Shown here: positions 577-25,623 of the stretch, piece by piece
Layout: each line of letters starts with the position of its first letter
How positions within the stretch are numbered: the stretch's first letter is position 1
Virus record (IMG/VR): IMGVR_UViG_3300034062_008799
Span: 1-25,974 of that record
Source of the DNA: a virus
Strand: one strand, 5' to 3'
Length of the DNA stretch: 25,974 nucleotides
The notes under the pieces: generated by a model
Told to the model about the DNA's origin: nothing
Database searches by the model: none
What the model saw: only the letters and a program-made list of their open reading frames with translations
Program-made: the position numbers and the translations under genes

Positions 577-1314
577 ATGAACAACCAGACCCGTGCTGCA
601 GCGCTGCTTGCCGCAGTGGCCGAAGCCCCCCGCGAAAGCTGCGGCCTGGTGGTGGTGGTGGGCGGCAAGGAGCGCTACTGGCCCTGCCGCAACATCAACC
701 CGATTCAGACCGATTTCAGCATTGATCCAGCCGACTACCTGGCCGCCGCCCGGGCCGGAACAATCGTGGCGGTGATCCATTCCCATCCCGACGGCTTCCC
801 ACATCCATCTGATGCCGATCGCGCCGGCTGCGAGAAGTGGGGGATCCCCTGGCACATCGTCTCCCCGCACCTGGGTGACGGCCAGGGCCAGTGGTTCAGC
901 TTCGAGCCCAGTGGCTGGAAGCCGCCGTTGATCGGCAGGCAATGGTCGTGGGGGGTTCACGACTGCTGGGCGCTAGTACGGGACTGGTACGCCGAGCAAA
1001 ACCTGCCCCTGCCGGACTTCGAGCGGCCCGCTGACCCAGAAGAGTTCCTGCGCCAGCCCCTGTTCGAGAGCCTCTACGCCGAGGCCGGCTTCTTTGCGGT
1101 GCCCCGGGAGCAGATCCGGGCCGGCGATGCCGTTCTGCAAAGCCGTTTCGTGCCCGGGCTCAACCATGTGGGCGTCATCCTGCCCGATGGCCGCCTGCTC
1201 CATCACGTAGAGGGCCGCCTGTCGAGCTCCGACATCTACGGCGACGGCCACCAGCGCAGCACCGGCCGGGTGTTGCGACCGCTTGCCTGGAAGGACAAGA
1301 GCCCCTGGACTTAG
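577..1314 (+). CDS. K: Tail assembly protein K: JAMM peptidase plus NlpC/P60 domain
   Basis: The 245-residue protein has two domains, as in lambda gpK. The first (about 1-110) is a JAB1/MPN metalloprotease with the complete JAMM signature: Glu20, then His68-Ser-His70, seven residues, Ser78, two residues, Asp81. The second (about 120-235) is NlpC/P60-like, with Cys130 in HDCWALVRDW, His197 in LNHVGV and a further His at 209/210. In lambda, gpK works with gpL and gpI in tail-tip assembly. Its peptidase domains are thought to help process a tail protein or the cell wall during DNA entry. All catalytic positions appear intact. It lies 9 bp downstream of L. The usual next gene, I, is displaced by two leftward genes. 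Confidence 0.93.
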   Translation: MNNQTRAAALLAAVAEAPRESCGLVVVVGGKERYWPCRNINPIQTDFSIDPADYLAAARAGTIVAVIHSHPDGFPHPSDADRAGCEKWGIPWHIVSPHLGDGQGQWFSFEPSGWKPPLIGRQWSWGVHDCWALVRDWYAEQNLPLPDFERPADPEEFLRQPLFESLYAEAGFFAVPREQIRAGDAVLQSRFVPGLNHVGVILPDGRLLHHVEGRLSSSDIYGDGHQRSTGRVLRPLAWKDKSPWT

Positions 1315-3554: not shown

Positions 3555-4190
3555 GTGGCATTGGAGCGAACCTTGAGGCTGTACGGGCCCCTGGCCGAGC
3601 GGACCGGCTACACGGTTTTGAGCGCCAATATCGCTTCGATTGGCGAAGCCGTGCGGTTCCTGGTCGCCAATTGGCCCGATCTGGAGGCCCTCATCGCCGG
3701 ATACGACTGGCTGCTGTCGGAGGGCAGCTACAACCTCGGCGCCGATGAGATTCACTACCCCCTCGGCAGCGAGGACATCCACCTGGTGCCGATCGTGAGT
3801 GGTTCAGGATCGGCCGGCGCCAAGATTGTGGGTGGCATTCTGCTGGTGGCCGCATCGTTTGCGGTGCCGGGCATTGGCCTGGCGGCCTTGGGGCCCACCC
3901 TGTTTGGCGCCGGCATGAGCCTGGCCCTAGGCGGTGCCGCCCAGCTGCTGACACCCTCAACGCCCACTCCAGATCGCAACCGTGATCCCAAAGAGACCAA
4001 CTCCTATTCGGTATCAGGGGTGCAGTTGACTTCTCGAGAGGGCACGCCCGTCAACATCCCAAGGGGCCGCATCGTCATGGGCGCCATCGTCATCTCAGCC
4101 GGCATCAGCACAAGTGAGTTGCCTGGGGCGGGCGCCAACAAGCGATCCATGACCCTGGTGGAAGCGATCCAGGCGACGGGCAAGCGATGA
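3555..4190 (+). CDS. I: Tail assembly protein I (lambda gpI-like)
   Basis: The 211-residue protein has the gpI pattern. The N-terminus reads RTLRLYGPLAERTGYTVLSANIASIGEAVRFLVANWP (ubiquitin-like fold region). A central Gly/Ala-rich hydrophobic stretch (about 87-130) includes GAGMSLALGGAAQLLTP. The tail ends in VEAIQATGKR. In lambda gpI helps assemble the tail tip with gpL, gpK and gpJ. The size is close to lambda's 223 residues. The start is GTG at 3555, the first available after an in-frame TAG at 3531; TTG at 3561 is an alternative, since the Shine-Dalgarno is poor. The stop overlaps J by ATGA, so the two are probably translationally coupled. A 196-bp divergent gap upstream separates it from PspC. 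Confidence 0.88.
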   Translation: MALERTLRLYGPLAERTGYTVLSANIASIGEAVRFLVANWPDLEALIAGYDWLLSEGSYNLGADEIHYPLGSEDIHLVPIVSGSGSAGAKIVGGILLVAASFAVPGIGLAALGPTLFGAGMSLALGGAAQLLTPSTPTPDRNRDPKETNSYSVSGVQLTSREGTPVNIPRGRIVMGAIVISAGISTSELPGAGANKRSMTLVEAIQATGKR

Positions 4191-6373
4191 GGCAGATCCC
4201 CATAGACAGCCTGGTCAAGCTGCCACCATGGCCAGTGATCCAGGGGGCTGGCATCGGTGGCCAAAAAAAGGCCCAGGCCAGCCGTGGGGCCGCCACGGCG
4301 CCGGACACCCTTAACTCCACCCAGTACGCCCGGCTGCTGCTGCTGCTCGGGGAGGGCGAACAAGAGGGATGGCCGTCGGCCAGGGGCTATACGCGGGGCA
4401 GCAAGGCCTATGAAACCGCTCTGCTGAAAAATATTTATATCAACGGAACGCCAATTCTTAAGGCATCGGCAGATCCAAATAATCCGAAAACCACGGATTT
4501 TAACTTTCTAGGCGTTGTTGTTGAGCATCGCTATGGGACTGTTGACCAGTCTGCGATCAAAGGTTTCAATGCAACCGAATCCCAGCGAGGGGTTGGGCTG
4601 CCGGTAACAGCAGCGACGCCGCTGACACGCACGATTACAGATACTGCCGTTAATGCACTAAAAATTACCCTTAGCTGGCAAGCATTACAGCAGTATTACG
4701 ATCCCAAGAATAAGGTATCAAAATCGTTGACTTCCAGCATCTTGAAAGGTGGCGTCAAGTCACCGCAGGAGGGCGATGTCATTGCGGTGGAGGTCAAATA
4801 TCAGATCCAAGTGGCAACTGCAGGTGGCAGCTTCAAAACCGTGGTTGACACATCTGTGAAAGGCCGTTCTGGCGATCTGTTTCAACGCAGCCATGAAATC
4901 GAGATCTATGGCCCCTTCCCCGTAAGCGTGCGAGTGGTGCGAATCACCCCAGATTCAAACAACTCCAAAGTCAATGACACAATGGTTTGGAGTGACTATA
5001 CAGAATTAATCTATGCAAAGCTTAGATACCCATATTCGGCGTTGTTGGCGTTGCAACTAGACGCCAAGTATTTCAGTTCCTGGCCGCAAGTATCCGTAGA
5101 CCGGTTAGGTGTCAAAATTCCGATTCCTGACAATGCAACCGTCGAGCAAACCACCGGCCGGTTGATTTACTCCGGCATTTGGACGGGCAACTTTGCCGAA
5201 GCTCAATGGACGACCGATCCTGCCTGGCATTTTTACGACCAGGTCACCCATCCACGCTATGGGTTCGGCCATCGCTGCCCGCCTGAAACCGTCGATAAGT
5301 TTGCTCTGTATTCAATATCTAAATACTGCGCAGAACTTGTGTCTGATGGCAGGGGCGGTTTTGAGCCGCGTTTTGCCTGTTCAATCAACATCCAGAGCAG
5401 CGAAGACGCATACAAACTGATCAATCAGATGGCCAGTGTCTTTCGAGGCATGCCCCATTGGGGCAAAGGCTCGGTAACTGTTACGCAAGATGCCCCTGGC
5501 GATGCAATCGTCACCGTATCAAATGCAGACATATCGCCAGAAGGCTTTCGCTATGTCGGCTCCAGCCTGCGGGAGCGCCATACCGTCGCCGTTGTGCGGT
5601 ATTTCAACAACGAGAAACAAGACTATGATTTTGTAACGGTACAAGATAAAAAGGCAATTCAGTTATATGGGGCAAAGGTCGCCAATATCGACGCTTTTGC
5701 CTGCACATCACCTGGGCAAGCCCATCGCGCAGGGGAATGGCTGCTTTACACCGAACAATACGAATCAGAAGTTGTGATGTTTGAGGGCACCGTGGCTCTG
5801 GGGGTGGAACTTCGGCCGGGCCTGCGGTTCAGAGCAGCTGATCGTCTCAAAAGCGGCGTAAGGCGAGCTGGCAAAACCATTGCAGGCACAACAACCAGCC
5901 TCACTGTTGATGATGCAACCCAGACTGATCTGCCAACCGGGGCAGATGCAACGATCACCGCCAAGCTGGTTGATGGAAATCTGGAGACACGATTCATTGG
6001 TTCTATCAGCGGTGTGGTTGTTACACCAGCCCTGCCATTCTCGGCAGCGCCATTGATTGGTGGCACTTGGTCAATTGACAACAACGCCATGCGCACAAGC
6101 CTGTGGACGGCTATTGGCATCACCGAAAGCAGTCGGACGAAATATATGGTTTCTGCATTGCGCCATAATCCAAGCAAATATGACTACATCGAGCGTGATA
6201 TTCCATTAGATCTGCAAGTGTTTGCACCCCTTGAAATCAAGCCACCGGCGGCACCCTCCAGCGCAACAGCCATCGCCGTGGTAAATCCAGCCACACGGCA
6301 AACCGATATGCACCTCTCCTGGGAGGCCATTCCTGGGGCAGTCGAGTATGAGGTGGCGGTGCGCACCGTATGA
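4187..6373 (+). CDS. J: Central tail tip / host specificity protein J, N-terminal part
   Basis: The 728-residue protein matches the N-terminal two-thirds of lambda gpJ. Near the N-terminus come LLLLLGEGEQEGWPSARGYTRGSK, then KNIYINGTPIL and FNFLGVVVEHRYGTVDQ. The phage tail-tip core (about 260-480) has IYSGIWTGNF, the WHFYDQVTHPRYGFG motif, AYKLINQMASVFRGM and SNADISPEGFRYVG. In lambda gpJ forms the tail-tip hub and, at its C-terminus, binds the host receptor. The ORF stops inside what looks like a fibronectin-III domain (from about residue 686, ending LSWEAIPGAVEYEVAVRTV). The next ORF starts at the overlapping ATGA and supplies the rest of that domain, so the lambda-size protein (728 + 500 versus about 1132) is split in two. 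The central part is more AT-rich than its flanks. Confidence 0.9.
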   Translation: MRQIPIDSLVKLPPWPVIQGAGIGGQKKAQASRGAATAPDTLNSTQYARLLLLLGEGEQEGWPSARGYTRGSKAYETALLKNIYINGTPILKASADPNNPKTTDFNFLGVVVEHRYGTVDQSAIKGFNATESQRGVGLPVTAATPLTRTITDTAVNALKITLSWQALQQYYDPKNKVSKSLTSSILKGGVKSPQEGDVIAVEVKYQIQVATAGGSFKTVVDTSVKGRSGDLFQRSHEIEIYGPFPVSVRVVRITPDSNNSKVNDTMVWSDYTELIYAKLRYPYSALLALQLDAKYFSSWPQVSVDRLGVKIPIPDNATVEQTTGRLIYSGIWTGNFAEAQWTTDPAWHFYDQVTHPRYGFGHRCPPETVDKFALYSISKYCAELVSDGRGGFEPRFACSINIQSSEDAYKLINQMASVFRGMPHWGKGSVTVTQDAPGDAIVTVSNADISPEGFRYVGSSLRERHTVAVVRYFNNEKQDYDFVTVQDKKAIQLYGAKVANIDAFACTSPGQAHRAGEWLLYTEQYESEVVMFEGTVALGVELRPGLRFRAADRLKSGVRRAGKTIAGTTTSLTVDDATQTDLPTGADATITAKLVDGNLETRFIGSISGVVVTPALPFSAAPLIGGTWSIDNNAMRTSLWTAIGITESSRTKYMVSALRHNPSKYDYIERDIPLDLQVFAPLEIKPPAAPSSATAIAVVNPATRQTDMHLSWEAIPGAVEYEVAVRTV

Positions 6374-9142: not shown

Positions 9143-9181
9143 AAGGAAAAGAGAGGCTATTGCATACCACTTGCCAAATCA

Positions 9182-9194: not shown

Positions 9195-9209
9195 AGTTTC
9201 AGAATTGAC

Positions 9210-9923: not shown

Positions 9924-9966
9924 TGATTCCCAGATTTGCTTAACCTGAGCAAACACAAGTCATGCA

Positions 9967-10376: not shown

Positions 10377-10381
10377 AATAT

Positions 10382-10702: not shown

Positions 10703-10709
10703 CGGAACC

Positions 10710-11720: not shown

Positions 11721-11723
11721 GTA

Positions 11724-12533
11724 TTAGTCCCCGATCAGTGGTGGACGATTACGAAAGGGGTGTGATGCGCTCAGCAAGTTCCTAAAGGAACCGAGCCACG
11801 CATACAATCCCTGCAGTAAGTCAACCTCCTTGCTGTTCCACACGCCGTTGAAATGTATAAAAGTAGCGAGGTCGCCGTTGAACCAATCTGCTGCAGTTGC
11901 GCTTGCAAAACGCGAGCCGATCCGATACGGTGCAACGCTCGATGTTGTGTTTGTGCTTATTGTTCCGTTCACCCGATTCCCGTTTACTGATATGAACGAA
12001 TTAGCTCCATTATAGACAACCGCGATGGCCTGCCATCCAAAAATGGATGTGACTGGGGAAACAAGCGAACCGCCGCTGCCGTCACGCGAAGCCGTCACTC
12101 GTCCGGTCGCGTTTGTTATCTCTAACTGCCGCCTTGATAAAGCATTGTCCGCGCCCGTATCTAAGATGTTTTCGCCATTGACACTCGGGTTTGCGCTCCT
12201 CAGCACCAGGAACAGGCTTTGGTTTGCGCCAGAAAAAGCCACATTGCTGCTGTCCAGATTGTTCTGGCCCGTGCGCGAGAATTTTAGCGACGGCAGATCC
12301 GACGCAACGCCGGGTGTGTATGTCGGCCTGCGGGCATCCGTAGCCTGTGAAAAGCTGCCCGGCCGTTCAATCGCGTCTTGGATGGAAACCACTTTGCCGC
12401 CGCTTTCCAGGGTCATGCACTGTGGCAGTGCAGCGTCAAAAAAGAACGTTGTGCGGGCAGTGCCCAGCAGAGCAGCAGACCACAGGCGCCCCTGCAGCTG
12501 CGCCTCGTCCAGCTGTGACGTACCGCGTGGCAC
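11724..12533 (-). CDS. LamG/concanavalin-like tail protein
   Basis: The 269-residue protein reads like a LamG-type jelly roll. Segments include PSLKFSRTGQNNLDSS, SLFLVLRSANPS, WQAIAVVYNGANSFISVNGNRVNGTI, YRIGSRFASATAADWFNGDLATFIHFNGVWNSKEVDLLQGLYAWL. Such domains in phage tail proteins usually bind cell-surface glycans. It starts with GTG sharing one base with the preceding TAG stop. It ends 3 bp before the repeat protein. The N-terminal 50 residues (RLWSAALLGTARTTFFFDAALPQCMTLES) may be a tail-attachment segment. Glycan binding is inferred from the fold. Confidence 0.75.
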   Translation of the reverse strand: MPRGTSQLDEAQLQGRLWSAALLGTARTTFFFDAALPQCMTLESGGKVVSIQDAIERPGSFSQATDARRPTYTPGVASDLPSLKFSRTGQNNLDSSNVAFSGANQSLFLVLRSANPSVNGENILDTGADNALSRRQLEITNATGRVTASRDGSGGSLVSPVTSIFGWQAIAVVYNGANSFISVNGNRVNGTISTNTTSSVAPYRIGSRFASATAADWFNGDLATFIHFNGVWNSKEVDLLQGLYAWLGSFRNLLSASHPFRNRPPLIGD

Positions 12534-12952
12534 TAGCTGACTTCCTCGCTGTAGGTGCGGATATAGAACTCGTTCCCGCTTCCGGGGGTGCTGACACCTG
12601 CATTATTCACAATCTGAAAAATACAAGGGAAGGGATACACTCTGATCATCTTGAAAATCACAACCTTTGCACCCGTAGTTGTTGTCAGCCCTTCTACATA
12701 GCTATCAAAAGACCCACCGTTAAGATCTGGTGTATCCGTTCCGTCGCCGCAATATACACGCAGCGTGATTGAACCGCCCGCCATTGGCGTTAGGGATCCC
12801 AGTTTGACCGTGACAATCCCGTGAGGGTCTTTCACATTGCTGAGATCCAAGTTGATCGCCGCTCCAGCGGAGCCGTTTGCTATCGAGTTAAATGTTGTGC
12901 CAGCAAGGTTAGATGACCTTGTGCTTGGCGTTGTCCACTTTACGACGGCCAT
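12533..12952 (-). CDS. Conserved-looking phage tail-module protein, unknown
   Basis: The 139-residue protein starts MAVVKWTTPSTRSSNLAGT and is beta-rich, with low charge and several Gly-rich turns. It is reminiscent of small structural proteins in phage tail modules, but I cannot name a family. It overlaps both neighbours: ATGA with the upstream gene and a one-base TAG/GTG overlap with the LamG gene. That indicates one coupled operon. Confidence 0.7.
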   Translation of the reverse strand: MAVVKWTTPSTRSSNLAGTTFNSIANGSAGAAINLDLSNVKDPHGIVTVKLGSLTPMAGGSITLRVYCGDGTDTPDLNGGSFDSYVEGLTTTTGAKVVIFKMIRVYPFPCIFQIVNNAGVSTPGSGNEFYIRTYSEEVS

Positions 12953-13410
12953 CAGGCATTACCCCTTGCAATACCGACATCGCGAATTGTAACCTCACCC
13001 ACGCCTTCTATGTCGGCCCATGATTGATCAACGTCTGCCCGTGACATCATTGCGTTGCGGGTGTCATTTGTTAAAATCTGCGCAAGTACCAGACGGTCCA
13101 GCAGTAGAGCTGTTGCGTCGTATATCGCCGGGACGCTGGCGCGGATTATGTGTAATTGCATGATAGCGTCGCGTAGAACGATACACGCGCCGCGCACTTG
13201 TTGCGGAGCTTGAGTATTTTCGGCAGTAACAACCACTGCGGCCCATTCTCCCGTTGAAAGCAAGATCTCCCTGGCGTCGTATGTTCCCACATCGACTCGT
13301 TTTTTTGGCAAAGTGTTGTCTGGCGCATTAAGAGCGGCGGCGACATCCGACTCTGCCATCCCAGCAAACTGCGCCACCTTTGCCGCGATCTTCTGTTCCC
13401 GCTCCGTCAT
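12952..13410 (-). CDS. Phage tail-module protein, unknown
   Basis: The 152-residue protein is mixed alpha/beta with an acidic helical N-terminus (MTEREQKIAAKVAQFAGMAESDVAAAL). No family is recognised. A strong ribosome site (GGGGGG about 6 bp upstream) precedes the ATG. The stop overlaps the next gene by ATGA. Its place as second gene of the leftward fibre operon suggests a structural or assembly role. Confidence 0.65.
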   Translation of the reverse strand: MTEREQKIAAKVAQFAGMAESDVAAALNAPDNTLPKKRVDVGTYDAREILLSTGEWAAVVVTAENTQAPQQVRGACIVLRDAIMQLHIIRASVPAIYDATALLLDRLVLAQILTNDTRNAMMSRADVDQSWADIEGVGEVTIRDVGIARGNA

Positions 13411-13445
13411 TTATCACCCCCCTGCTTGCCAGAATAAAGACATAA

Positions 13446-13883
13446 TCATTCCTCGGTGACTGTGGTGGTCGAAAGTATGCGAGGAGTAACGCCAGGAGCT
13501 ATGGCAATGGGCGGGGTGAGCGTTCCTTTGTAGAGCACCAAGGCCGCGCCTGAAGATGCAACCCCAATCGCAAAATGCGTGGCATTCCCAGTGCCCACCG
13601 TACAGTTCGGAAAATCGACATGTGCTGCAGGTGACACCGAGTTGTCCGTCACCGTGAACCCGGCGCTGGATCGCGCACCGCCGACGCGGGCATAGCCGGT
13701 GTAGGACACCTCATTGGTGGCCTGTGTGCCTACCTCACCGGGATCTGCCGTGTGCAATGAAAAGAACAGCTGCCCCGCCGTTACTGACCCCCGCAATCCG
13801 GTCGCGTCACCGATATTGGCGATGGGTTCATTTAGGAACACTTGCCGCAACCAGGCGTTTTCAAAAGCATTCGATTTAGACAT
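13446..13883 (-). CDS. Gp80-like phage tail fibre protein
   Basis: The 145-residue protein matches a widespread phage tail protein pattern: MSKSNAFENAWLRQVF, LFFSLHTADPGEVGTQATNEVSYTGYARV, NSVSPAAHVDFPNCTVGTGNATHFAIGVASSGAALVLYKG, and a TEE C-terminus. This is the Gp80-type family of tail proteins, of about the same length. It is the first gene of the leftward operon. AGGA lies 8 bp before the ATG. The operon promoter should be in the gap at 13884-14333. Confidence 0.85.
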   Translation of the reverse strand: MSKSNAFENAWLRQVFLNEPIANIGDATGLRGSVTAGQLFFSLHTADPGEVGTQATNEVSYTGYARVGGARSSAGFTVTDNSVSPAAHVDFPNCTVGTGNATHFAIGVASSGAALVLYKGTLTPPIAIAPGVTPRILSTTTVTEE

Positions 13884-14162
13884 TTTAATTTCCTGTGTTT
13901 AGCGGCTGGATGAAGGCGGACCTAGAGGCGTCACTGGTGGTGACTCCGGTTTTAACGGCGGCCAGGTCTACAGCATTTTACCGACTCCGACCCAACTGAT
14001 CCGGGAATCTTCCTGCCAGGGACGCAACGGCAGCCCATTCATTTAGAAAACCAAGACCCCGATGGGCCAGCTGACTGAGGTTGAGGCTCAAGCGGACCGA
14101 GCAAGTCACGAACTAGGCACCGGCCAGACCAAACCCGTTGCCAGGCCTAGCTATTGCTCAAA
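13884..14162. other. Gap upstream of the fibre operon and att site
   Basis: No complete gene is supported between the fibre operon and the tRNA fragment. On the + strand a 47-codon frame (13903-14043) is open between TAG stops and reads like protein (for example GGPRGVTGGDSGFNGGQVYSILPTPTQL). It has no ATG, GTG or TTG start and may be a remnant. An inverted repeat GTCAC-N5-GTGAC lies near 13930-13944. The leftward fibre operon must be transcribed from this gap or from further right, but I see no clear promoter. Confidence 0.4.
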
Positions 14163-14204
14163 CTCATAATTCGCCTTAGCCGAGTTCGATCCTCGGGACC
14201 CCCA
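14163..14204 (+). other. attP: Phage attachment site: 3' part of a CAU-anticodon tRNA gene
   Basis: The sequence carries the 3' half of a tRNA. It has the anticodon loop CTCATAA (14163-14169), the 3' anticodon strand TTCGC, and a perfect T arm (CCGAG 14180-14184, loop TTCGATC, CTCGG 14192-14196). The acceptor 3' strand GACCCCC (14197-14203) and discriminator A (14204) follow; CCA is not encoded. There is no D arm or 5' acceptor upstream, and the 5' anticodon strand (TCAAA) does not pair properly, so homology starts at the anticodon loop. This is the classic attachment site of a tyrosine integrase using a tRNA 3' end, and int starts 130 bp downstream. The donor tRNA is elongator Met or the CAU-reading Ile; initiator Met is unlikely, as CCC is missing after the loop. 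Confidence 0.8.
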
Positions 14205-14260
14205 TCCCAAAAACCATAGTCAGGACAGGGGATCTCATCCAGCTGTGGCCATCCAGCCGG

Positions 14261-14330
14261 GCCTTCAGAAGGCACAAAAAGGCCTGAAAAGGCCCATAAG
14301 GGGCCAAAGTAGGCACGCTTTTAGGCACGG
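14261..14330. repeat. Helically phased 10-bp repeats between att and int
   Basis: AAGGC-type units start at 14269, 14279 and 14289, with a degenerate unit at 14299, exactly 10 bp apart, so all face one side of the helix. TAGGCACG follows twice (14310-14317 and 14322-14329). The palindrome GCCTTC-A-GAAGGC (14261-14273) lies at the left edge. The place, between the att core and the int start, fits integrase arm-type sites, excisionase sites or an operator controlling int. Confidence 0.5.
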
Positions 14331-14333
14331 CCG

Positions 14334-15437
14334 ATGCCCAAGGACCCGTATCTCTCCCGCGTCAACCGGGCCCTCCGTGCACTTGGAGCCAGCGTGTCGA
14401 TGGAGGTCTCGCCGTCCGGCGGCCGGCTGCGGTTGCGTGGCACCCTGCCAATGGCAGATGGCACCTGGAAGCAACGCCGGATCGTTACCGCCTTTCCCTA
14501 TCCCGCTGGGATTGACCAAGCCCGGGTGCTGGCTGAGCAGCTGGGCCAGGACATCGAGCTGCATCGCCGCGGCCTTCAGCCGTTCCCTTTTGACCGCTGG
14601 TCCCAGGCTGGTGCCGGATCGAGCAATTGGGCTGCTCGGGAAGGCATCAGCGGGCATGAAGCGATCCGGCGGACCGAGATCTGGTGGCACGAGCGGCGCC
14701 AGCGTGGCCCAAAATCGGCGGTGAGCTGGGCAACGGCCTACGGGGGGCCGCTGCGGCCACTGCTGCAGCAGCAGGATGTGACGCTCGACATTCTGCGAGC
14801 CCTGGTGGCAAGCAAGCCTGTTGGTGGGTGCGCACGGCGCAAGGCGGCATTGGCAGCGACGGCTGTGGCGCAGGCCCTGGCAATGGGCATGGAGGCTGTG
14901 CAAGAGCTGCGGGATCTCGGGAAGGGCTACAGCCCCTCGAAGGCGCGGCCGCGCAGCCTGCCCGATGACCAGGTGATCATCGATGCGATCGATGGAATGC
15001 CCGCCAATTGGCAGTGGGTTGCCGGAATCTGCGCCACCTATGGCACCCGCCCCCACGAGGCCCTGCTGATGGCCTCTGTCGAAAGTAATGGGCTGGCCGT
15101 GGTCCGGGCGGGGAAGACTGGTGCTCGAAAGAGCTTGCCGCTGCCAAAGGCCTGGATCGAGCGATGGAACCTCCAGGAGCAACGGCTGCCGGCAATCAAT
15201 TTCGAACGGGACAGCCGAACCGTGGGGGCGCAGCTGGCGGTGGCCTTTCGCCGGTTCCAGGTGCCGTTTCAGCCGTACGACCTTCGCCATGCCTGGGCCG
15301 TGCGGGCCATCTCCAACCCGCAGATCAGCCCATCTCTGGCAGCCAAGAGCCTGGGCCATTCCTTGATGGTCCACACCACGCTGTACCAGCGTTATTTCGA
15401 CAATGACTCGATGGCATCACTTGTGGCGCAGATGTGA
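14334..15437 (+). CDS. int: Tyrosine recombinase, phage integrase
   Basis: The 367-residue protein has an N-terminal arm- and core-binding part (about 1-200) and a C-terminal catalytic domain. The catalytic residues visible are Arg239 (TYGTRPHEALLM), Lys261 or Lys266 (GKTGARKS), Arg318 (PYDLRHAWAVR), His342 (LGHSL) and Tyr351 nine residues later (TTLYQRYF). The usual first His of the HxxR box is Tyr315 here. Integrases of this type cut at attP in the adjacent tRNA fragment and recombine with the matching host tRNA gene. Upon integration, int would lie just downstream of the restored tRNA and point away from it. Its 3' end overlaps the convergent excisionase-like gene by 21 bp. The Shine-Dalgarno before the ATG is weak. 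Confidence 0.92.
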   Translation: MPKDPYLSRVNRALRALGASVSMEVSPSGGRLRLRGTLPMADGTWKQRRIVTAFPYPAGIDQARVLAEQLGQDIELHRRGLQPFPFDRWSQAGAGSSNWAAREGISGHEAIRRTEIWWHERRQRGPKSAVSWATAYGGPLRPLLQQQDVTLDILRALVASKPVGGCARRKAALAATAVAQALAMGMEAVQELRDLGKGYSPSKARPRSLPDDQVIIDAIDGMPANWQWVAGICATYGTRPHEALLMASVESNGLAVVRAGKTGARKSLPLPKAWIERWNLQEQRLPAINFERDSRTVGAQLAVAFRRFQVPFQPYDLRHAWAVRAISNPQISPSLAAKSLGHSLMVHTTLYQRYFDNDSMASLVAQM

Positions 15438-15743
15438 GGCATAGCCCTCCACATCCACCAGGAGCCGCCGCCGCTTGCTGCTGTCCTCATTTGTGTCCCT
15501 GACGAACTTGGGAGGGATTGTGCCCCGGTCAATAGCCCCCCGCAGCGCTTTGGCACTGGAAAAGCGCAAAACTTCGGCGGCTGCGGGCAGGGGCAGCCAA
15601 AGGCTTTTCGGGTTGGACGGCCTGGCATGCAGCTGGAAACCGGCCAATAGCCTGTCCAGCTGCTCTGCAATGTCGTCGAGGCGCTTGTTGATTGCCTCGG
15701 CTGCAGCATCGCCCATGGCTTCAGTTGGTGAGCTGGACGCCAC
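15417..15743 (-). CDS. Excisionase-like small DNA-binding protein
   Basis: The 108-residue protein has an N-terminal helical segment (AAAEAINKRLDDIAEQLDRLLAGF). A winged-helix-like DNA-binding segment follows (about 48-100): LWLPLPAAAEVLRFSSAKALRGAIDRGTIPPKFV, then RRRLLVDVEGYASHL. This is the layout of excisionase/MerR-like proteins, where a short HTH reads DNA and a basic wing follows. It is the last gene of the leftward early operon and converges on int with overlapping 3' ends, which suits a directionality factor. I cannot assign it to a named Xis family from sequence alone. Confidence 0.6.
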   Translation of the reverse strand: MASSSPTEAMGDAAAEAINKRLDDIAEQLDRLLAGFQLHARPSNPKSLWLPLPAAAEVLRFSSAKALRGAIDRGTIPPKFVRDTNEDSSKRRRLLVDVEGYASHLRHK

Positions 15744-16143
15744 TGGCCTCTTTTAACTCGTGGATGGTGCGCCGCGCCGGCAGGGACTGCAACGGCAGAT
15801 CAGGCTGGAAAGGATCGTTGCGGCTCAGTGACCCCGATTCTTCATCGAAGAAGAAGAACGATGGATCCACTTCAGCCGTGGGCTTGCGAAGAACCACCTT
15901 GTCTTCGACAAGCATCTGAATGCCGCGGCCAGCCTTTTTGACCTTGATGGTGAGGGTGAGGCTGCCGGACTTGTCGGTGGCCATCACCGCCTGGGTGAGC
16001 TCGGCCAGGGCCACGGTGAGCTCGCCGTGCAAGGCGCCTTGACGCTGAAGAAACAGCCAGGCCGAAAAGGCTTGCAAGTTTGCGGTCTCGCCGTTGGCCG
16101 CGGCGTCATCGGTGGCTGGTAAACCTGAGGATTCGTAAGTCAT
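15721..16143 (-). CDS. Conserved phage early protein, function unknown
   Basis: The 140-residue protein contains a pattern I know from many phage early regions: GELTVALAELTQAVMATDKSGSLTLTIKVKKAG, VEDKVVLRKPTAEVDPSFFFFDEESGSLSRNDPFQ. No activity is established that I know of. It overlaps the excisionase-like gene by 23 bp and belongs to the leftward early operon. In other phages the family is often found next to DUF2303 or recombination genes, as here. Confidence 0.7.
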   Translation of the reverse strand: MTYESSGLPATDDAAANGETANLQAFSAWLFLQRQGALHGELTVALAELTQAVMATDKSGSLTLTIKVKKAGRGIQMLVEDKVVLRKPTAEVDPSFFFFDEESGSLSRNDPFQPDLPLQSLPARRTIHELKEASGVQLTN

Positions 16144-16229
16144 TTTGAGCTTTTATGAAAGAGGAAGAAAAAGCTGATGTACTGAAGCAAAATGGCAAAA
16201 AAAGCAATGCAAAAGAGGCTTTGATCTGT

Positions 16230-16255
16230 CACAGCGGGCCAGCTCAGATGCCGTT
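16230..16255 (-). repeat. Degenerate duplicate of the DUF2303 gene 3' end
   Basis: Read on the minus strand, this segment matches the last 26 bases of the DUF2303 gene (16646-16671) at about 21 positions. In the same frame it encodes NGI, a stop, AGPL and a stop, where the intact gene ends HGIPAGPL; the Pro codon CCG has become TGA. It suggests an old tandem duplication or recombination scar flanking the 131-residue ORF. Confidence 0.45.
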
Positions 16256-16649
16256 AAAGAGCATGAACATCACGCTCAAATACTGCGCGCACCATTGGCG
16301 GTGCATCTAATGGAACACCATGGAGTTGTTCGTCGACTAGATGCACCGCCAATGGTGCGCGTCGACAGCGGCCAACAACAATCACACAGCTCGGATCTTT
16401 ATAGCCAAAGTCTACAGCGATATCTGTGCGATCCTTTACCAACTTGTCAAGTTGGTCGATCCTTGCGTTTAGCGCAATCACATCGACGTGATGTTGAGAG
16501 CTAACCGCTCTAATCATTCCGCCCAATCGGGCCATATCCTGAGAGTAGTTAGCCCTTAAATCTCTAAGAAACGCAAGTGCGTTCCACCAGTTCTTGAATC
16601 CCATGGAGAAAAAATGCAAAGGGGAGAAAGCAAGGTATGAATTGATCAC
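16254..16649 (-). CDS. Small early protein, unknown, with hairpin insertion near its 3' end
   Basis: The 131-residue ORF starts at GTG overlapping the DUF2303 stop (GTGA); ATG at residue 16 is an alternative start. The body (GFKNWWNALAFLRDLRANYSQDMARLGGMI, a coil RIDQLDKLVKDRTDIAVDFG, and KDPSCVIVVGR) looks like a phage family whose members, as I remember them, end soon after a GRYRxxDYV-type motif. Here the sequence instead runs GRCRR, then about 24 residues encoded by a perfect inverted repeat (16286-16361), then VFERDVHAL. I infer that the hairpin was inserted into the 3' end. Function is unknown. Confidence 0.55.
   Translation of the reverse strand: MINSYLAFSPLHFFSMGFKNWWNALAFLRDLRANYSQDMARLGGMIRAVSSQHHVDVIALNARIDQLDKLVKDRTDIAVDFGYKDPSCVIVVGRCRRAPLAVHLVDEQLHGVPLDAPPMVRAVFERDVHAL
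16286..16361. repeat. Perfect 24-bp inverted repeat with 28-bp spacer
   Basis: The left arm at 16286-16309 (CGCGCACCATTGGCGG then TGCATCTA) is matched without error by its reverse complement at 16338-16361. The 28-bp spacer contains the palindrome CCATGG. GTCGAC occurs on both sides of the right arm (16332-16337 and 16361-16366). As RNA this would be a 24-bp hairpin; no T-run follows on either strand. It lies inside a coding frame, which makes a mobile miniature element or a regulatory RNA hairpin more likely than a terminator. Confidence 0.85.
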
Positions 16650-17551
16650 AGCGGACCAGCCGGAATGCCGTGGTAGACAACTAGGTCGGTTTGTTCTTCA
16701 ATCACCTTGATGGCATCGTTAATTGAGGATCGCAAGATTTGATCCGGCCTATCCAGCAGCAGCCGCAGGGTTAATCTTTGGTCGCGCAATGAATACCTAA
16801 ATCGTGCTGGGACTTTGAAGGGATCCGATCCTTCGAAAGGCGCCAAGGCCAAGGTGATGCTTTTGGGAATTTTCAGCTGGTTCTGCCTGCCGGCACTGGC
16901 GTTGTGCTCTTCGGTATATTGAAAACTTACTTCACCGGAAGCCAGCCTTAATGCCTGCTGGAATTTTACTCCAGAAGCAACAGAAAGACTGGAGGCAATC
17001 TCCAACAAGTCTGCCGCGTCTGGTTCCACAATGTCAGCCAGGTGGTCTTCCAAGAAATCGGCGAATTCATCTTGAGGATGGTTTTTCTTGCAGAATTCAA
17101 ACCATTCGGACCACGCTGCAGTGAGCTGGAATTCCAAGATTGCTCGATGAGCGCCCCAGCCAGGTTCTTGCTCTTTAAGATCCGAAGGGCTGTGGCGGCA
17201 ATGGCCATCCAATACGGCCGTGATTGTGTTCTGTTTGCAATCAGCCCATAGCTCAGCCCGTGGGCCAGGATGGATGTGACTATTGATATAGTCAATAAAT
17301 CCATTTAATTGATGAAATCTGAAAGTGCCTGATGGCCTTAATGGTGGCAAGCCAATTTCACAACGGTAGCCATTTCCCGTCAGATCAAGGATTTCCATGG
17401 TGCCCTTACCGGTATGGGCCCAGTAAATCCTTTGAGGCTCAACTTCAAGCGGCTTGCACGCAGATTGGGCAATTTCAGCGACAGCGTCGGCTTCTGTCCT
17501 CAAGCCTTCGTTACTCCAAGCGGCATGAACAATTGGATCAGAGTTGGCCAT
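16646..17551 (-). CDS. DUF2303 (YfdQ-like) phage protein
   Basis: The 301-residue protein matches the DUF2303 family along its length. Matching segments are HQLNGFIDYINSH, WGAHRAILEFQLTAAWSEWFEFCKKN, the DEFADFLEDHLADIVEPDAADLLEIASSL motif, KFQQALRLASGEVSFQYTEEHNA, LKIPKSITLALAPFEGSDPFKVPARFRYSLRDQRLTLRLLLDRPD, and the end YHGIPAGPL. DUF2303 proteins (E. coli YfdQ is one) occur in prophage early regions and have no proven function. The length is normal for the family. It is in the middle of the leftward early operon and its stop overlaps the next gene by GTGA. Confidence 0.9.
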   Translation of the reverse strand: MANSDPIVHAAWSNEGLRTEADAVAEIAQSACKPLEVEPQRIYWAHTGKGTMEILDLTGNGYRCEIGLPPLRPSGTFRFHQLNGFIDYINSHIHPGPRAELWADCKQNTITAVLDGHCRHSPSDLKEQEPGWGAHRAILEFQLTAAWSEWFEFCKKNHPQDEFADFLEDHLADIVEPDAADLLEIASSLSVASGVKFQQALRLASGEVSFQYTEEHNASAGRQNQLKIPKSITLALAPFEGSDPFKVPARFRYSLRDQRLTLRLLLDRPDQILRSSINDAIKVIEEQTDLVVYHGIPAGPL

Positions 17552-17614
17552 GGCGGAAAAAATTGAATGTGGGGAAAAGTTGCGGGTTGTCAGGCGTGGA
17601 TGATGGAAACGGAG

Positions 17615-18013: not shown

Positions 18014-18516
18014 GCCTCAGCCAGCTGGGGTTCGGCGGCCGCGGCCATTGCAGGCTCAAGCGGATTGACCACGCCAGTAGCCGCGGCCAGGGCCAACAGG
18101 GACTCGATGCGCTCGGCCCGGGTCTTCGGTGGCGGCTGGATCGCCTGGGCAGGAGGCAGGGCAAAAGCCCGGTGCTCCGCAGGCACCGGCTGTAGAGGGG
18201 TGAAAGTCCCCGCAGCGGCCAGCCGCTGGGGCAGATCACTCCGCAGCCCGCGACCCACACACGGGGAAATGCCCTGGCAGGGATAGAGATACCGAAGCAA
18301 GGCCATGTGCAAAGCCATGTCTGGCACGGGCTCAGGATCCAGCAACAGCTGTTGTGCCGCAAAAATCAAATGAGCCTTGTTCAGCTCTTGCCGTGCCTGC
18401 TGCGGAAAGGTCAAAAACGCAAACGTGTGATCATCGCCAGTGAGCTTCTTGGCAAAGCGCTGGAGGGACGAAAGGCTCTCCAGCACGTCAAACAGGTCAT
18501 CGGAACTGATCGTCAT
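18010..18516 (-). CDS. Early operon protein, unknown
   Basis: The 168-residue protein has a helical N-terminal half (DDLFDVLESLSSLQRFAKKL, QQARQELNKAHLIFAAQQLLL). Its C-terminus is Pro/Ala-rich (PPPKTRAERIESLLALAAATGVVNPLEPAMAAAAEP). It overlaps the end of the replication-initiator-like gene by 20 bp. By position it could be a helicase-loader-like partner (as P follows O in lambda), but no motif supports that. Confidence 0.6.
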   Translation of the reverse strand: MTISSDDLFDVLESLSSLQRFAKKLTGDDHTFAFLTFPQQARQELNKAHLIFAAQQLLLDPEPVPDMALHMALLRYLYPCQGISPCVGRGLRSDLPQRLAAAGTFTPLQPVPAEHRAFALPPAQAIQPPPKTRAERIESLLALAAATGVVNPLEPAMAAAAEPQLAEA

Positions 18517-19696
18517 GGGCCCTCCGTACCTCGTGGTTGATCCCCCGATTCATCGCATCCCGCTTCTGCTGGCGCAGGTCGGAAGGGTCAAAATTCGGTT
18601 TGCCGGATCGTAGCATCCTGGATTCTGTATGGGCGAGGGCAAGCGTAAAATCGCTTGTTGTCGCTGCCTCCGCCAAGCCTGCAATCACCCGGCGGTGTCC
18701 CTCGTGGCCCAGGGATTGCCAGCCGGCTTCGGCTGCCTGTTCGAGGTAGCCCTCCAGCACGCCGTGCTCAACCGCCAGGCGAATGGCGTTCAAGGTCCGG
18801 GTTCCCAACTGCAGCCGATCGGCCCGGGGATGGACGCGGCAGCGGCGCTGCCACCAGGTCGCCAGCAGATCCAGCAGATCTGGCTCCAACTCCGGGGCAT
18901 CGCCCGGCAAGGGGCAAGCCTGCGCCGAGCGGCTTTTGGCGGTGGCCGCGGCCTTCGGTTGGGCTTTGGGTTTGCTTGCCGCTGCAGCTGCGACAACGGG
19001 TTCAGCGGTGATTGGGCTGGTGGCCGCGGCCACCGGTGCCGGGTCACCGGGGGCATCCGTCGGGGTCGGTTCAACCGGATCAAGGCTGATCACCTCCGTC
19101 ACCTCGACCACGCTGGCGGGTTCGTCCCCCGGTGCGCGCAGCGCAGTGGGGGATACAGGGGGTTCTAAAGGCTGTTCTTCTTTCTTCTTGTTAAGTACTT
19201 CTTGTTTGTATCCCCCATTTGGGGGAGGGGTCCCCTCCCCCGGTTGGGGTAGGGGTACCTCACCCCTTTTGGGGTATCCCCCATTTGGGGGAACCCCCCG
19301 TCTGGGGGATACCCCTTTCGGGGGAGTTCCCCTGCCAGGGGATGGGCCACTGTTTTGACGAGGCTCTTCCCCAGTGTTCATTAAGGTTTTGCCAAATACT
19401 GCCGGCTCGGATCGCACATGAAAAACGGTCGTGAAACCAGGCCGTTGGACACTGGTGACCCAGCCCCCGGCCTCAAGCCATCGATGGGCTTGACGCACGT
19501 CATCAGCCTTCATCCCGCATTCCACGCTCTGGGTTTCAATCGACGGGTAGGCCTTGTCGTCGGTGCCGGCATGATCCCAAAGCCATGCGTAGACGAACAA
19601 ATGGTTCTTCCGGTCTCTGCAATCCCGCAGCAACTGCTTAGGGACAATGACAAAATCAGTACGCTTAAGGGTTGACTGATCTGGCTGTGATGGCAT
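18497..19696 (-). CDS. Replication initiator-like protein (lambda O analogue) with internal origin
   Basis: I place the start at ATG 19696, giving 399 residues. The frame is open to 19957, but the extension would span a terminator-like hairpin and reads poorly. The N-terminal 110 residues form a winged-helix DNA-binding domain (FVIVPKQLLRDCRDRKNHLFVYAWLWDHAG, YPSIETQSVECGMKADDVRQAHRWLEAGGWVTSVQR), as in phage replication initiators. A Gly/Pro linker follows, encoded by seven palindromes, then a lysine-rich stretch. A long Ala/Pro region and a helical C-terminus (LDLLATWWQRRCRVHPRADRL, LEGYLEQAAEAGWQSLGHEG) come last. In lambda O, the N-terminal domain binds iterons located in the middle of its own gene. 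The same layout is seen here. It is the first gene of the leftward operon. Confidence 0.72.
   Translation of the reverse strand: MPSQPDQSTLKRTDFVIVPKQLLRDCRDRKNHLFVYAWLWDHAGTDDKAYPSIETQSVECGMKADDVRQAHRWLEAGGWVTSVQRPGFTTVFHVRSEPAVFGKTLMNTGEEPRQNSGPSPGRGTPPKGVSPRRGVPPNGGYPKRGEVPLPQPGEGTPPPNGGYKQEVLNKKKEEQPLEPPVSPTALRAPGDEPASVVEVTEVISLDPVEPTPTDAPGDPAPVAAATSPITAEPVVAAAAASKPKAQPKAAATAKSRSAQACPLPGDAPELEPDLLDLLATWWQRRCRVHPRADRLQLGTRTLNAIRLAVEHGVLEGYLEQAAEAGWQSLGHEGHRRVIAGLAEAATTSDFTLALAHTESRMLRSGKPNFDPSDLRQQKRDAMNRGINHEVRRAHDDQFR
19173..19341. other. ori: Putative replication origin: seven G/C-tract palindromes plus AT-rich stretch
   Basis: Seven palindromes of the form CCCC(C)-N4/5-GGGG(G) occur in 130 bp. 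They centre near 19218, 19243, 19268, 19284, 19301, 19317 and 19335. Two are identical: TCCCCCATTTGGGGGA at 19211-19226 and 19277-19292. Spacing is 25, 25, 16, 17, 16 and 17 bp. Immediately left lies an AT-rich pyrimidine tract (19173-19210) in an otherwise GC-rich gene. Reading along the initiator gene, the order is DNA-binding domain, iterons, AT-rich, C-terminus, exactly as in the lambda O gene and its ori. The origin role is inferred. The repeats also encode a Gly/Pro-rich linker (PPNGGY twice). Confidence 0.6.
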
Positions 19697-19792
19697 AGAA
19701 TTCAGATGTTGAATGTGATGGAAGAGGGCCTGGCCTGACTGGGCTCGACGCCTTACGGATCGCTGGGGAGCGGCTGTAAGCACACGTTCTGC

Positions 19793-19824
19793 AAAGAACC
19801 CCGGTTCGGCCCCGGGGTTTCTTT
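19793..19824. terminator. Bidirectional rho-independent terminator-like hairpin
   Basis: AAAGAACCCCGG, a 7-nt loop and CCGGGG-TTTCTTT form a stem of 6 G/C pairs flanked by an A-rich and a T-rich tract, with one bulged T. It could work in either direction. It lies between the divergent initiator and + strand operons, so it may end a short leader or small RNA (compare lambda oop). It also argues against the long N-terminal extension of the initiator. Confidence 0.55.
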
Positions 19825-19849
19825 GTGGATGCAGACATAGGCCATCCAC
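19825..19849. promoter_or_regulatory. Operator-like dyad in the divergent control region
   Basis: GTGGATG (19825-19831) and CATCCAC (19843-19849) form a perfect 7-bp inverted repeat with an 11-bp spacer, 25 bp in all. That is a size typical of phage repressor operators. It sits between two divergent early operons. No second full copy was found; the half-site TTTGTGGATG recurs at the ERF gene start (21138-21147). Confidence 0.4.
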
Positions 19850-19928
19850 GAAACAGGATAGGGGCTTGCTGGCGTCCCGAACAACTGATGGGCGGGAATC
19901 GGGCAGAATGCAAGAGCCACCCTTCTCC

Positions 19929-20846
19929 ATGCGGACACGGTCATTGCCCAAAGCCATCCCGCCAGAACTGCAGCGCTTTGCGCGCGGGCAAGAGACCTTC
20001 GCCGCTTTGACTCGCAGTTGGATGGCGCGCTCGGGCTGGAGCTATGCCGCCATGGCCGACCTGGCCGAAGCCGCCGTTGTCGCCCTGGAGGCGAACGGCA
20101 TCCCCGGCATGGGGCAGGGCCCTTATGCCAAGGATGACCTCGCCGTTGCCAATGGCCACGTCTGGCGCGCCAAGAGGGATGGCATTGGCAGCAACACCAC
20201 CATCCCCAAACTGAATCAGGAATCAGAGGACTGGGAACGGGTCGCCACCGTGCGCAGGATTTTTGCCTCCCAGATCAACAACCTGCAACGCCAACTGCTC
20301 AAGCAGGTATCGCCGGTGATTTTTGACAGCTACGGGCTGCTCAACAAATACATTGAGGCCGTCCAGACCGGCAAACTGCCAGCACCCAAATCAGAGGTGC
20401 TAGCTCGCCATATCAGCAGCGCTGTAACGATCACCGACGAACAGGGCCTTTACGGCGCCGAAGAATTTTTTAGCGTTTATCTGGGAAACTTGTCCCCGGA
20501 AATCGTGGAACCGGTGGTGAACGATCAGGAAGCTCGATCCATTAGCGCAGCCGTAGCCAAGAAAATTCGCGAAGGCATTCAGGCCTGCAAACTTGATCTG
20601 ATCGACGACTGGAGCCAGTTCCTCTCCTGTTACCCCACATCAAACCCTGAGCGACTGGCCCGCATCCGCGAGGTCGCCCTTGGCCTTGGTGCCTGGTCAG
20701 CGGATCAGGTGCGCGACGAGGAGGCCGCCGTCGCCATCGCCCTGGTCCGCCTGGCCAGCCGCAATCGGCCGCAGCTCAGCGATGCCTCAGCAACCGCTGC
20801 ACCAGCACTGGAGGAATCCCAAGCATCAACCCAGGGGCAGGGCTGA
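19929..20846 (+). CDS. Unrecognised early protein, possible regulator
   Basis: With the ATG at 19929 the protein has 305 residues. ATG 19908 and TTG 19866 (the latter with AGGATAGGGG just upstream) are alternative starts. The N-terminal region (QRFARGQETFAALTRSWMARSGWSYAAMADLAEAAV, then DDLAVANGHVWRAKRDGIG) has helix-turn-helix-like spacing but matches no family I can name. The rest is mostly helical, with RIFASQINNLQRQLLKQVSPVIFDSYGLLNKYIEAVQ. Its place, divergent from the initiator operon across an operator-like dyad and first in the rightward operon, suggests a regulator such as the repressor. That is inference. Confidence 0.6.
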   Translation: MRTRSLPKAIPPELQRFARGQETFAALTRSWMARSGWSYAAMADLAEAAVVALEANGIPGMGQGPYAKDDLAVANGHVWRAKRDGIGSNTTIPKLNQESEDWERVATVRRIFASQINNLQRQLLKQVSPVIFDSYGLLNKYIEAVQTGKLPAPKSEVLARHISSAVTITDEQGLYGAEEFFSVYLGNLSPEIVEPVVNDQEARSISAAVAKKIREGIQACKLDLIDDWSQFLSCYPTSNPERLARIREVALGLGAWSADQVRDEEAAVAIALVRLASRNRPQLSDASATAAPALEESQASTQGQG

Positions 20847-21140: not shown

Positions 21141-22043
21141 GTGGATGTTCCCCAACAGGGCACCGAGCCCACGCTCACGGATGAAAAACCGGATCATCAA
21201 CCGGAAAACCTTCGCTTACAAGTTCTTGAAAAAAGGCTCGCAAAATTAGGCGAGTGGGCCTTATCTGCCCAGGAAGGGTTCAGAGGCCTACAAGAAAAAC
21301 AAGACCTGATTGCCGCTGACCTCGCTTCTCATCAGGCAGCATTACAAACTCAACAGCAGACCGCGGCTGTTGACGTGGTGATGGGTTACAGGCCTTCAGG
21401 TGAGCAGCTAATCCTGCTGTTTGAGGCCTTGGCGCAGTGGCAATGCGGTGCCCCTGAGGTTGAGAAATCAGCCCGGGCCAGTTTCAAAACCAAAGACAAT
21501 AACGAAGGAGGAGGAGGGGGGAAAGATGTAAATTATTCTTACGCGACGCCAGGAGAAATTTCCTCGCTGGCACGGACAGCAGGAGAAGTTGGGCTAGCGC
21601 ATTTTCATCGAGAAATTGTTCTTTCAGATTATAGTGTCATTAGAACTTATTTGTTACATAAGGGCGGTGGTTTTATTTACTCAGACGTGCCACTTTTGAC
21701 GAGGGAAAATAAATTACTTAGTCCTATGCAAGTTTGGTCAGTGGCTAACACTTCGGCAAGGCGACTAGGACTCCTTTCGGTCTTAGGCATCATGCCAAGC
21801 GACACCGATGATGATGGCAATCCGCGCCAGCCAGAGGGCCAGGCAAATGGCCGCGGCCGATCAATTCGAACTGTGGGTGCAAGTTTGGGCTCCTCCACCA
21901 GACTGGGAGAAAAACCACCGCCATTGCCTGAAGCGAACATAAAGCGCATCCCAACTTCCAAACCTGCTGCCGTAGGGGCGGAGCCTGGGCAAGCGGAAGC
22001 ACCGATTCCAACCACAGCAACGGCCGGCTATGTGCCCGCATGA
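21141..22043 (+). CDS. erf: ERF-family single-strand annealing protein
   Basis: The 300-residue protein starts at GTG, the first start after an in-frame TGA. Residues 22-72 are a likely coiled coil. Residues 90-228 are the ERF core: LFEALAQWQ, then VNYSYATPGEISSLARTAGEVGLAHFHREIV, YLLHKGGGFIYSDVPL, and NTSARRLGLLSVLGIMPSDTDDDGN, which corresponds to the family's TYxxRYxLxxxLGI...DDD end. ERF proteins (as in P22) anneal single strands and promote recombination or circularisation of phage DNA. An unusual poly-Gly insert (EGGGGGKD, about 122-129) interrupts the core. The C-terminus is Pro-rich and disordered. SSB and a nuclease follow in the operon, completing a recombination set. Confidence 0.85.
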   Translation: MDVPQQGTEPTLTDEKPDHQPENLRLQVLEKRLAKLGEWALSAQEGFRGLQEKQDLIAADLASHQAALQTQQQTAAVDVVMGYRPSGEQLILLFEALAQWQCGAPEVEKSARASFKTKDNNEGGGGGKDVNYSYATPGEISSLARTAGEVGLAHFHREIVLSDYSVIRTYLLHKGGGFIYSDVPLLTRENKLLSPMQVWSVANTSARRLGLLSVLGIMPSDTDDDGNPRQPEGQANGRGRSIRTVGASLGSSTRLGEKPPPLPEANIKRIPTSKPAAVGAEPGQAEAPIPTTATAGYVPA

Positions 22044-24876: not shown

Positions 24877-25623
24877 ATGGACAGCCTTGGCATCACGATG
24901 ACTGGACGGATTGCCGACAAGAAGCCTGAAGCGGTCAAAACCATCCTCACCATCACTGCTTTACAGGATTCCTGGCTCAAGCAGAAGCCAGTCCCAGCGA
25001 GTGACCTCAGCTCAGACCAAAGGAAGCCAGTGAAGGCAGGAGCCATTCACGGTTTGGTGGCCGTACGGGAAATCCCCCGCACGGCCCATGTTGAGGTCGA
25101 CCTTGCCGAAGGCGGCGGCACCTGGGTGATCTGGCAGCCCCACTGGAGAGGGTTCTCAGAGCCTCCCACCAGCACCATCGTGAGAGGCCTGATTGATTGG
25201 CGCGACATGGGCGCAGCGGTTTCCAATCATCTCAGCGTTGGGGAGGTGCTGCAGTTCGATCCCCGTCGGCGGCCATCACCTTCCAGCGGGGACATCCCCC
25301 GCATCATCCACACTGCACGCAAAGGCTTTGAGCCCCTCAGGCTTGCCTGGGGGACACCGCTGGGCGTGACCAGTTTCTACCGACCTGAGCCGATCAACGC
25401 TCAAGTTGGAGGGGTTCGGAACAGTCACCACATCCCCGGCAACGCATTTGACATCTACCCCATCGGCCGCAGCTTGGAGGAATTCTTCCAATGGGCTCGC
25501 GTTCGCTGGACTGGCGGCCTGGGCGATGGCCGGGATAGGGGATTTCTCCACTTCGACACCCGCAATTTTGGTGGATTCGCACCCGGCGGTGGCCGGCGGC
25601 CGGCGGCTGAGTGGATCTACTGA
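24877..25623 (+). CDS. Peptidoglycan peptidase M15 endolysin with N-terminal SH3-like domain
   Basis: The 248-residue protein has an N-terminal segment of about 30 residues (ALQDSWLKQKPVPASDLSSDQRKPVKAGAIHGL) typical of an SH3-like domain that I associate with cyanobacterial cell-wall proteins. A C-terminal M15A-type peptidase (about 155-248) follows. The peptidase has the TSFYRPEPIN motif, Ser183, His185 and Asp192 in the SxHxxGxAxD motif, and His225-x-Asp227, the zinc-binding and catalytic set. It would cut D,L- or D,D-peptide bonds in peptidoglycan and lyse the host. No signal peptide is present, so a holin or similar factor is expected. ATG 24877 is used; ATG 24873 is out of frame. Confidence 0.85.
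   Translation: MDSLGITMTGRIADKKPEAVKTILTITALQDSWLKQKPVPASDLSSDQRKPVKAGAIHGLVAVREIPRTAHVEVDLAEGGGTWVIWQPHWRGFSEPPTSTIVRGLIDWRDMGAAVSNHLSVGEVLQFDPRRRPSPSSGDIPRIIHTARKGFEPLRLAWGTPLGVTSFYRPEPINAQVGGVRNSHHIPGNAFDIYPIGRSLEEFFQWARVRWTGGLGDGRDRGFLHFDTRNFGGFAPGGGRRPAAEWIY

Follow-up and report, generated by a model that had tools for sequence, protein, structure and literature searches.

A probable attP site through which a freshwater cyanosiphovirus would integrate into a host CAU tRNA gene

The site at positions 14163-14204 of the window (the whole 25,974-nt stretch of viral DNA analysed here) is, with a probability of about 93%, part of the attP through which a temperate cyanosiphovirus of freshwater picocyanobacteria would integrate into a host CAU tRNA gene. 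According to the mechanism that we propose, the integrase encoded at 14334-15437 would recombine a 46-bp core with the identical 3' half of the host gene, and strand exchange would presumably take place across the 7-nt anticodon loop CTCATAA. Since the phage provides the 3' half, the tRNA would stay complete after integration, with int ~130 bp behind it (attL) and the tail/fibre end lying against the downstream host DNA (attR); excision would restore the order seen in the window. We infer working recombination, exchange within CTCATAA and arm binding at TAGGCAC repeats from comparison of natural sequences.

Annotation with PHROG and Pfam placed tail and fibre genes to the left of the core and int together with early genes to its right (Table 1). 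The integrase gene starts 129 bp right of the tRNA end, and replication and recombination genes as well as the endolysin gene lie further right. Neither an excisionase nor a repressor was recognised among the window genes.

Table 1. Coordinates of genes and putative recombination sites in the window.
Feature	Position	Strand	Basis
Minor tail protein	577..1314	+	PHROG phrog_30, E=2e-84
Lambda J-like tail tip / host specificity gene	4187..6373	+	PHROG central tail fibre J, E=1.9e-173
Fibre/head-type gene adjoining attP, transcribed away from attP	13446..13883	-	phrog_240, Pfam Gp80
TAGGCAC, candidate arm-type site, P (tail-side) arm	14114..14120	+	47 bp before core in 7 attP contigs
Putative attP core (O)	14161..14206	+	46 bp common to attP, attB, attL and attR; G004 attL/attR flanks compared with window
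tRNA(CAU) 3' half, probably tRNA-Ile2	14163..14204	+	Exact matches to complete host tRNAs
AAGGCAC, degenerate candidate arm site	14269..14275	+	AGGCAC at +109 in most phage contigs
TAGGCAC, candidate arm-type site, P' (int-side) arm	14310..14316	+	+149 in all attP/attL contigs; kept in chromosomal relatives
TAGGCAC, second P' candidate site, 12 bp after first, immediately before int	14322..14328	+	+161; kept in relatives
Tyrosine-recombinase integrase, 367 aa	14334..15437	+	PHROG integrase, E=1.4e-7; Pfam PF00589 below cut-off
Early-region gene, DUF2303	16646..17551	-	Pfam PF10065
Replication-initiation-like protein	18497..19957	-	PHROG phrog_270, E=1.9e-7
Erf-like single-strand annealing protein	21141..22043	+	PHROG phrog_2324, E=1.8e-6
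Endolysin, peptidase M15	24877..25623	+	PHROG phrog_894, Pfam PF08291

The tRNA fragment and its likely target

The 42 bases at 14163-14204, CTCATAATTCGCCTTAGCCGAGTTCGATCCTCGGGACCCCCA, are the exact 3' half of a picocyanobacterial CAU tRNA, running from the anticodon loop CTCATAA to the discriminator A. ARAGORN found no complete tRNA in the window and Rfam gave no match at its gathering threshold, leaving the 3' half without a 5' half. When genome contigs were scanned, the 42-mer was recovered exactly in 19 stretches, each time as the end of a complete CAU tRNA, and the number of such 42-bp matches expected by chance is ~1e-14. Nearly all of these stretches are labelled Synechococcus, Cyanobium or cyanobacterium; one carries the label Bifidobacterium breve, which is probably wrong because its contig has the same tRNA and the same integrase family. 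These results agree with the original prediction, made from the letters of the window, which had described a fragment extending from the anticodon loop to the discriminator base with tail genes on its left and int and early genes on its right, and the host search that it had proposed, for a CAU tRNA with these 42 bases at its end, returned complete tRNAs in host genomes.

The target is probably tRNA-Ile2(CAU) and not a methionine tRNA, an assignment made by elimination as initiator and elongator-type CAU tRNAs are present separately in the host. In tRNA-Ile2, C34 is modified to lysidine, and a C3-G70 acceptor pair contributes to the identity of elongator methionine tRNA. In both genome G126 and genome G201 the CAU tRNAs fall into three kinds: an initiator with a mismatched 1-72 pair and a GGG/CCC anticodon stem, a second kind with a TTCATAA loop and an elongator-type acceptor stem, and the integration target itself, which has the CTCATAA loop and an unusual short D arm. 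Besides the separate presence of the other two kinds, the target lacks C3-G70, and we regard its being a methionine tRNA as unlikely.

Junction types, genome order and alternative readings

Exact-pattern scans of viral contigs located 11 occurrences of the 42-mer, which we sorted by their flanks, and together with the host genomes all four site types were recovered. The attP type, in which the core stands between the tail arm and the int arm, is represented by seven contigs (the window, L002, L003, L004, L006, L010 and L012), and the complete tRNAs of Synechococcus and Cyanobium genomes represent attB. Two loci, L005 and L008, are of the attL type, with a complete tRNA, called by ARAGORN in both, and int ~130 bp downstream; the chromosomal locus L015, the integrase of which is 73% identical, is of this type as well. 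The attR type, in which tail arm and core are followed by host DNA, was found in L009 and L011, and also in L007 with a different left arm. The core delimited by these comparisons measures 46 bp, includes the tRNA 3' half and is exact in all seven attP-type contigs, and its ends are the exact attL and attR junctions in G004, the attL junction in G007 and the attR junction in G009.

Both junctions of a single prophage are contained in G004 (IMGVR_UViG_3300027763_000065, 60,785 bp), the two ends of which are L005 and L009. Its cores lie at 256 and 60,472 (reversed contig) and enclose a prophage of ~60.2 kb. At one end the rebuilt tRNA has int directly behind it, and at the other the tail arm and core run into host DNA; the host DNA is short, ~230-270 bp per side. 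Alignment with the window was syntenic and gave two blocks broken at the core, such that window positions 1-14215 correspond to one prophage end and positions 14161-25974 to the other, with an identity of mostly 89-95% that is lower across the fibre region.

In L031, a contig of a Lac Pavin metagenome-assembled genome (G028), two neighbouring segments match the host flanks of G004 at 97.8% and 95.9% identity. When joined into a 304-nt query, the flanks align end-to-end on L031 at 80%, a value this low because the L031 site has ~44 extra bases. By this comparison, L031 is a near-empty site carrying both flanks, approximate rather than identical. Within L031 (3605-5660) the tRNA and the end of the upstream gene occur twice, at a distance of 1,983 bp and separated by small genes, possibly a remnant of an earlier insertion; owing to this duplication, the empty site is close to a perfect copy without being one.

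The attP arrangement is also found in G010 (69,291 bp) and G001 (56,912 bp), both of which span the attP junction, and G001 crosses both G010 ends in order, matching G010 60,739-68,529 and then 465 onward. By this overlap the attP-type contigs represent one circle of ~69 kb, each opened at another place, and G004 is the same circle opened at the core. No end repeats were found in any of the compared contigs, the window included. The window is a ~26-kb fragment of a ~60-69 kb genome in excised or circular order. Among the late genes of G010 are those for TerL, portal, protease, capsid and a tape-measure-like protein. The phage genome also encodes an AbrB-like cyanobacterial regulator (L041 7946-8362, equal to G010 67946-68362; PF14250, E=5e-26), which could serve in lysogeny or in controlling the host.

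Judged from its gene order, the window DNA would come from excised, circular, concatemeric or packaged phage rather than from a single integrated copy. The contigs alone do not separate a circle, a virion and a tandem-lysogen junction, which all have the same attP sequence. A tandem (double) lysogen or a replicating concatemer, of which the window would be an internal junction, is the alternative that survives best: a tandem array yields exactly the window's order of tail end, core and the int of the next copy, and the window has neither terminal repeats nor proof of circularity. Against a tandem array, six other contigs share this order and none of them has an added complete tRNA or a host flank, the two long contigs (57 and 69 kb) join up as a single circle, and tandem lysogeny in all of these cases is less likely than free phage DNA. 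We therefore regard this alternative as unlikely, and only as unlikely given that a tandem junction is identical in sequence to attP. Free phage DNA in attP order thus stays the preferred reading, as the original prediction had proposed: six further contigs and the ~69-kb circular map have the excised or circular order, the rebuilt tRNA with int directly behind it that it had foreseen upon integration is seen at one end of G004, and the arrangement it had named as counter-evidence, the window's order flanked on each side by a complete tRNA or a core copy, was found in none of the recovered contigs.

That the fragment is a relic tRNA piece with no role in integration, int using a different site, is highly improbable: phages do carry tRNA remnants, but here the attL and attR junctions fall exactly at the core ends in the three contigs named above and the integrase has chromosomal relatives at the same distance behind this tRNA. 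Equally improbable is an assembly chimera in which two phages, or a host and a phage, were joined across the conserved tRNA sequence. Conserved 42-mers can mislead short-read assemblers and G007 contains a suspicious join, but that join lies elsewhere (at 2228), and the junction is common to seven contigs that are several percent divergent, with conserved arm spacing on both sides. G007 (L035) consists of a tRNA-int-dnaB fragment followed by the abrupt switch to tail genes at this position. We rejected the idea that it is a 13.7-kb tail-only satellite, as the related G003 reads on through dnaB beyond that point, which makes G007 a deletion or an assembly chimera.

The integrase and candidate arm-type sites

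The integrase is divergent from described families. It scored 15.8 bits against Pfam PF00589, for which the cut-off is 27.1, found no match in NCBIfam, aligned weakly with a XerC-like protein (E=0.24) and had no match in 50,697 phage records (E 1e-5). By the test of catalytic R, K, H-x-x-R, H/W and Y residues it nevertheless counts as a tyrosine recombinase; R239, K261, R318, H342 and Y351 are invariant across 16 relatives, and the usual first box II histidine is replaced by Tyr315. Its predicted structure is poor overall (mean pLDDT 52.8), and the predicted beta-beta-beta-alpha N-terminus (local pLDDT ~65-80) would fit the arm-binding domain of a heterobivalent (lambda-like) integrase.

Relatives of the integrase (E<=1e-50) were detected in 21 of 300 Cyanobiaceae genomes, and an extra scan of viral contigs added one partial new contig, L098. 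Intact chromosomal relatives are located 133-166 bp behind a tRNA. Those nearest to the phage protein (62-74% identity) follow the CAU tRNA at 133-137 bp, and the others follow Leu-TAA, Arg-CCT and Ser-TGA tRNAs. Phylogenetically, the phage integrases group as a single clade inside the CAU-targeting chromosomal ones (supports of the enclosing sets 95/92 and 100/99), and this nesting suggests that the phage may have acquired its integrase from chromosomal elements, with the reservation that the tree is unrooted. The phage J and capsid genes were absent from the 300 sampled Cyanobiaceae genomes, whereas the same queries do recover the viral contigs, and lysogens would accordingly be rare or absent in the sampled genomes.

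Comparison of the two arms in the seven attP contigs returned TAGGCA and AGGCAC as the only common 6-mers, overlapping as TAGGCAC. In each of the seven this heptamer stands at -47, +149 and +161 relative to the start of the core, even in G003, the left arm of which is otherwise unalignable with the window (44/120 identical). It is found at -47 in the attR of G009 as well and in the attR of L007, which belongs to an element without other nucleotide similarity. Chromosomal elements have TAGGCA at +109 and +120. When the arms of the window were shuffled by mononucleotides, 28 of 2000 trials gave a 7-mer present at least once in P and at least twice in P'; by itself the window is hence suggestive at most, and the argument rests on conservation across contigs. 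The chromosomal relatives with 62-74% integrase identity carry TAGGCAC in two pairs, relatives with 42-49% identity carry TAGGCAA in matching pairs, and at the far end of the 58.5-kb element of G201 the repeats stand at -58 and -47 ahead of a second core. The TAGGCAC repeats are thus probably arm-type integrase-binding sites. Upstream of the integrase in L047 and L056-L068, the heptamer changes from TAGGCAC to TAGGCAA by clade and the paired spacing of 11-12 bp is kept, so that integrase and arm site look as if they had co-evolved.

Known systems and other elements at the same tRNA

In tRNA integrases of the lambda, P22 and P4 type (Campbell), the core lies in the tRNA 3' half, the tRNA is restored and int stands beside attP; Williams reportedly treated tRNA-targeting tyrosine integrases in 2002. 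The window resembles this type in core placement, tRNA restoration, the position of int and two-sided candidate arm sites, and differs from it in its divergent integrase, which has no above-cut-off Pfam or NCBIfam match, and in the arm motif TAGGCAC. Tycheposons are elements of Prochlorococcus that are moved into tRNA genes by tyrosine recombinases and carry cargo, and they are defined as picocyanobacterial tRNA-integrating islands without a full set of phage structural genes. The chromosomal integrase relatives are similar to tycheposons in being picocyanobacterial and in combining tyrosine recombinases, tRNA genes and cargo. The family of the window has tail, portal, capsid and terminase genes and falls outside this definition.

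Among phages, the Prochlorococcus siphovirus P-SS2 has a putative attP that was inferred without observed integration (PMC2784084). Like the window's family it is a cyanosiphovirus with int beside a match to the 3' half of a host CAU tRNA (36/53 bp) (PMC2784084). The P-SS2 stretch, however, belongs to the initiator tRNA, recognised by its GGG/CCC anticodon stem, and the window's to another CAU tRNA, and we rejected the possibility that the two share a target. Only attP is available for P-SS2, whereas attL and attR are seen in the window's family, and a tblastn comparison of the two integrases gave no match. S-LBS1, a siphovirus of freshwater Synechococcus with a 34.6-kb genome and an integrase, has been proposed to be temperate (PMC6157547) and is similar to the window phage in being freshwater and integrase-bearing; its proposed att repeats are 14-bp motifs within coding genes, and no prophage was found (PMC6157547). 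The closest capsid in the phage collection is that of the Synechococcus phage S-CBS4 (HQ698895; 44% over 96%), the genome of which (69.4 kb) is similar in size to that of the window's group. The relation is distant, and S-CBS4 gave no match to the window integrase at E 1e-5.

Lysogeny of picocyanobacteria has long been suspected from induction, prophages have been reported missing from cultured genomes, and lysogeny in isolates of unicellular cyanobacteria is regarded as rare or unproven (PMC2784084, PMC6157547). For a host group that is poor in such evidence, the complete junction set (attP, attB, attL and attR) of a single freshwater phage family has here been read from natural DNA, which fixes the site, the core and the candidate arm sites closely enough for recombination to be assayed directly. 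The integrase moreover ties the phage to chromosomal defence elements at the same tRNA.

One such element, of 58.5 kb, occupies positions 324,650-383,230 of contig 1 of G201 (L108-L110), a 2.6-Mb single-contig picocyanobacterial genome, and is bounded by the complete tRNA with int on one side and a second core with TAGGCAC repeats on the other. Its cargo comprises AbiEi/AbiEii, BrxC, a duplicated PglX, PglZ, BrxL and a DUF3987 protein, and it also contains phage head genes (capsid and portal-like). A second, unrelated phage-like type, found in L036 (IMGVR_UViG_3300034062_008862, 2212-19579), has the core and an arm site in common with the window. It encodes TerL, portal, scaffold and a collagen-like fibre, and neither a tail tube nor a tape measure was recognised in it. 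Its capsid, 46% identical to that of P-SS2, is encoded in 53 of 300 Cyanobiaceae genomes at up to 99% identity and in up to seven places per genome, and the type may comprise widespread prophages or capsid-encoding satellites.

Tentatively, and with more doubt than confidence, we consider that one module, made up of an unnamed integrase family and TAGGCAC or TAGGCAA arm sites, might be common to the cyanosiphoviruses, the second phage type and the AbiE/BREX chromosomal elements, all competing for the same CAU tRNA gene, and that integrase clades specialise on different tRNAs with the arm motif changing by clade. If this were true, an occupied site together with defence cargo could act against incoming phage.

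Two segments of the window differ between close relatives. The putative fibre region beside attP (11523-13441) is without a nucleotide match in G001, G005 and G010, the closest relatives, which have other genes in its place, and may constitute a receptor-binding module exchanged next to the att site. The ~390 bp at 16255-16645 lie between int and the DUF2303 gene; G001, G004, G005 and G010, in which the flanks abut, lack this segment, possibly a small insertion. On the host side of attR in L009 and L007, the first bases beyond the core resemble, by eye and in comparison with the L015 protein, the 3' end of AbiEi, which suggests leftovers of earlier elements at the tRNA.
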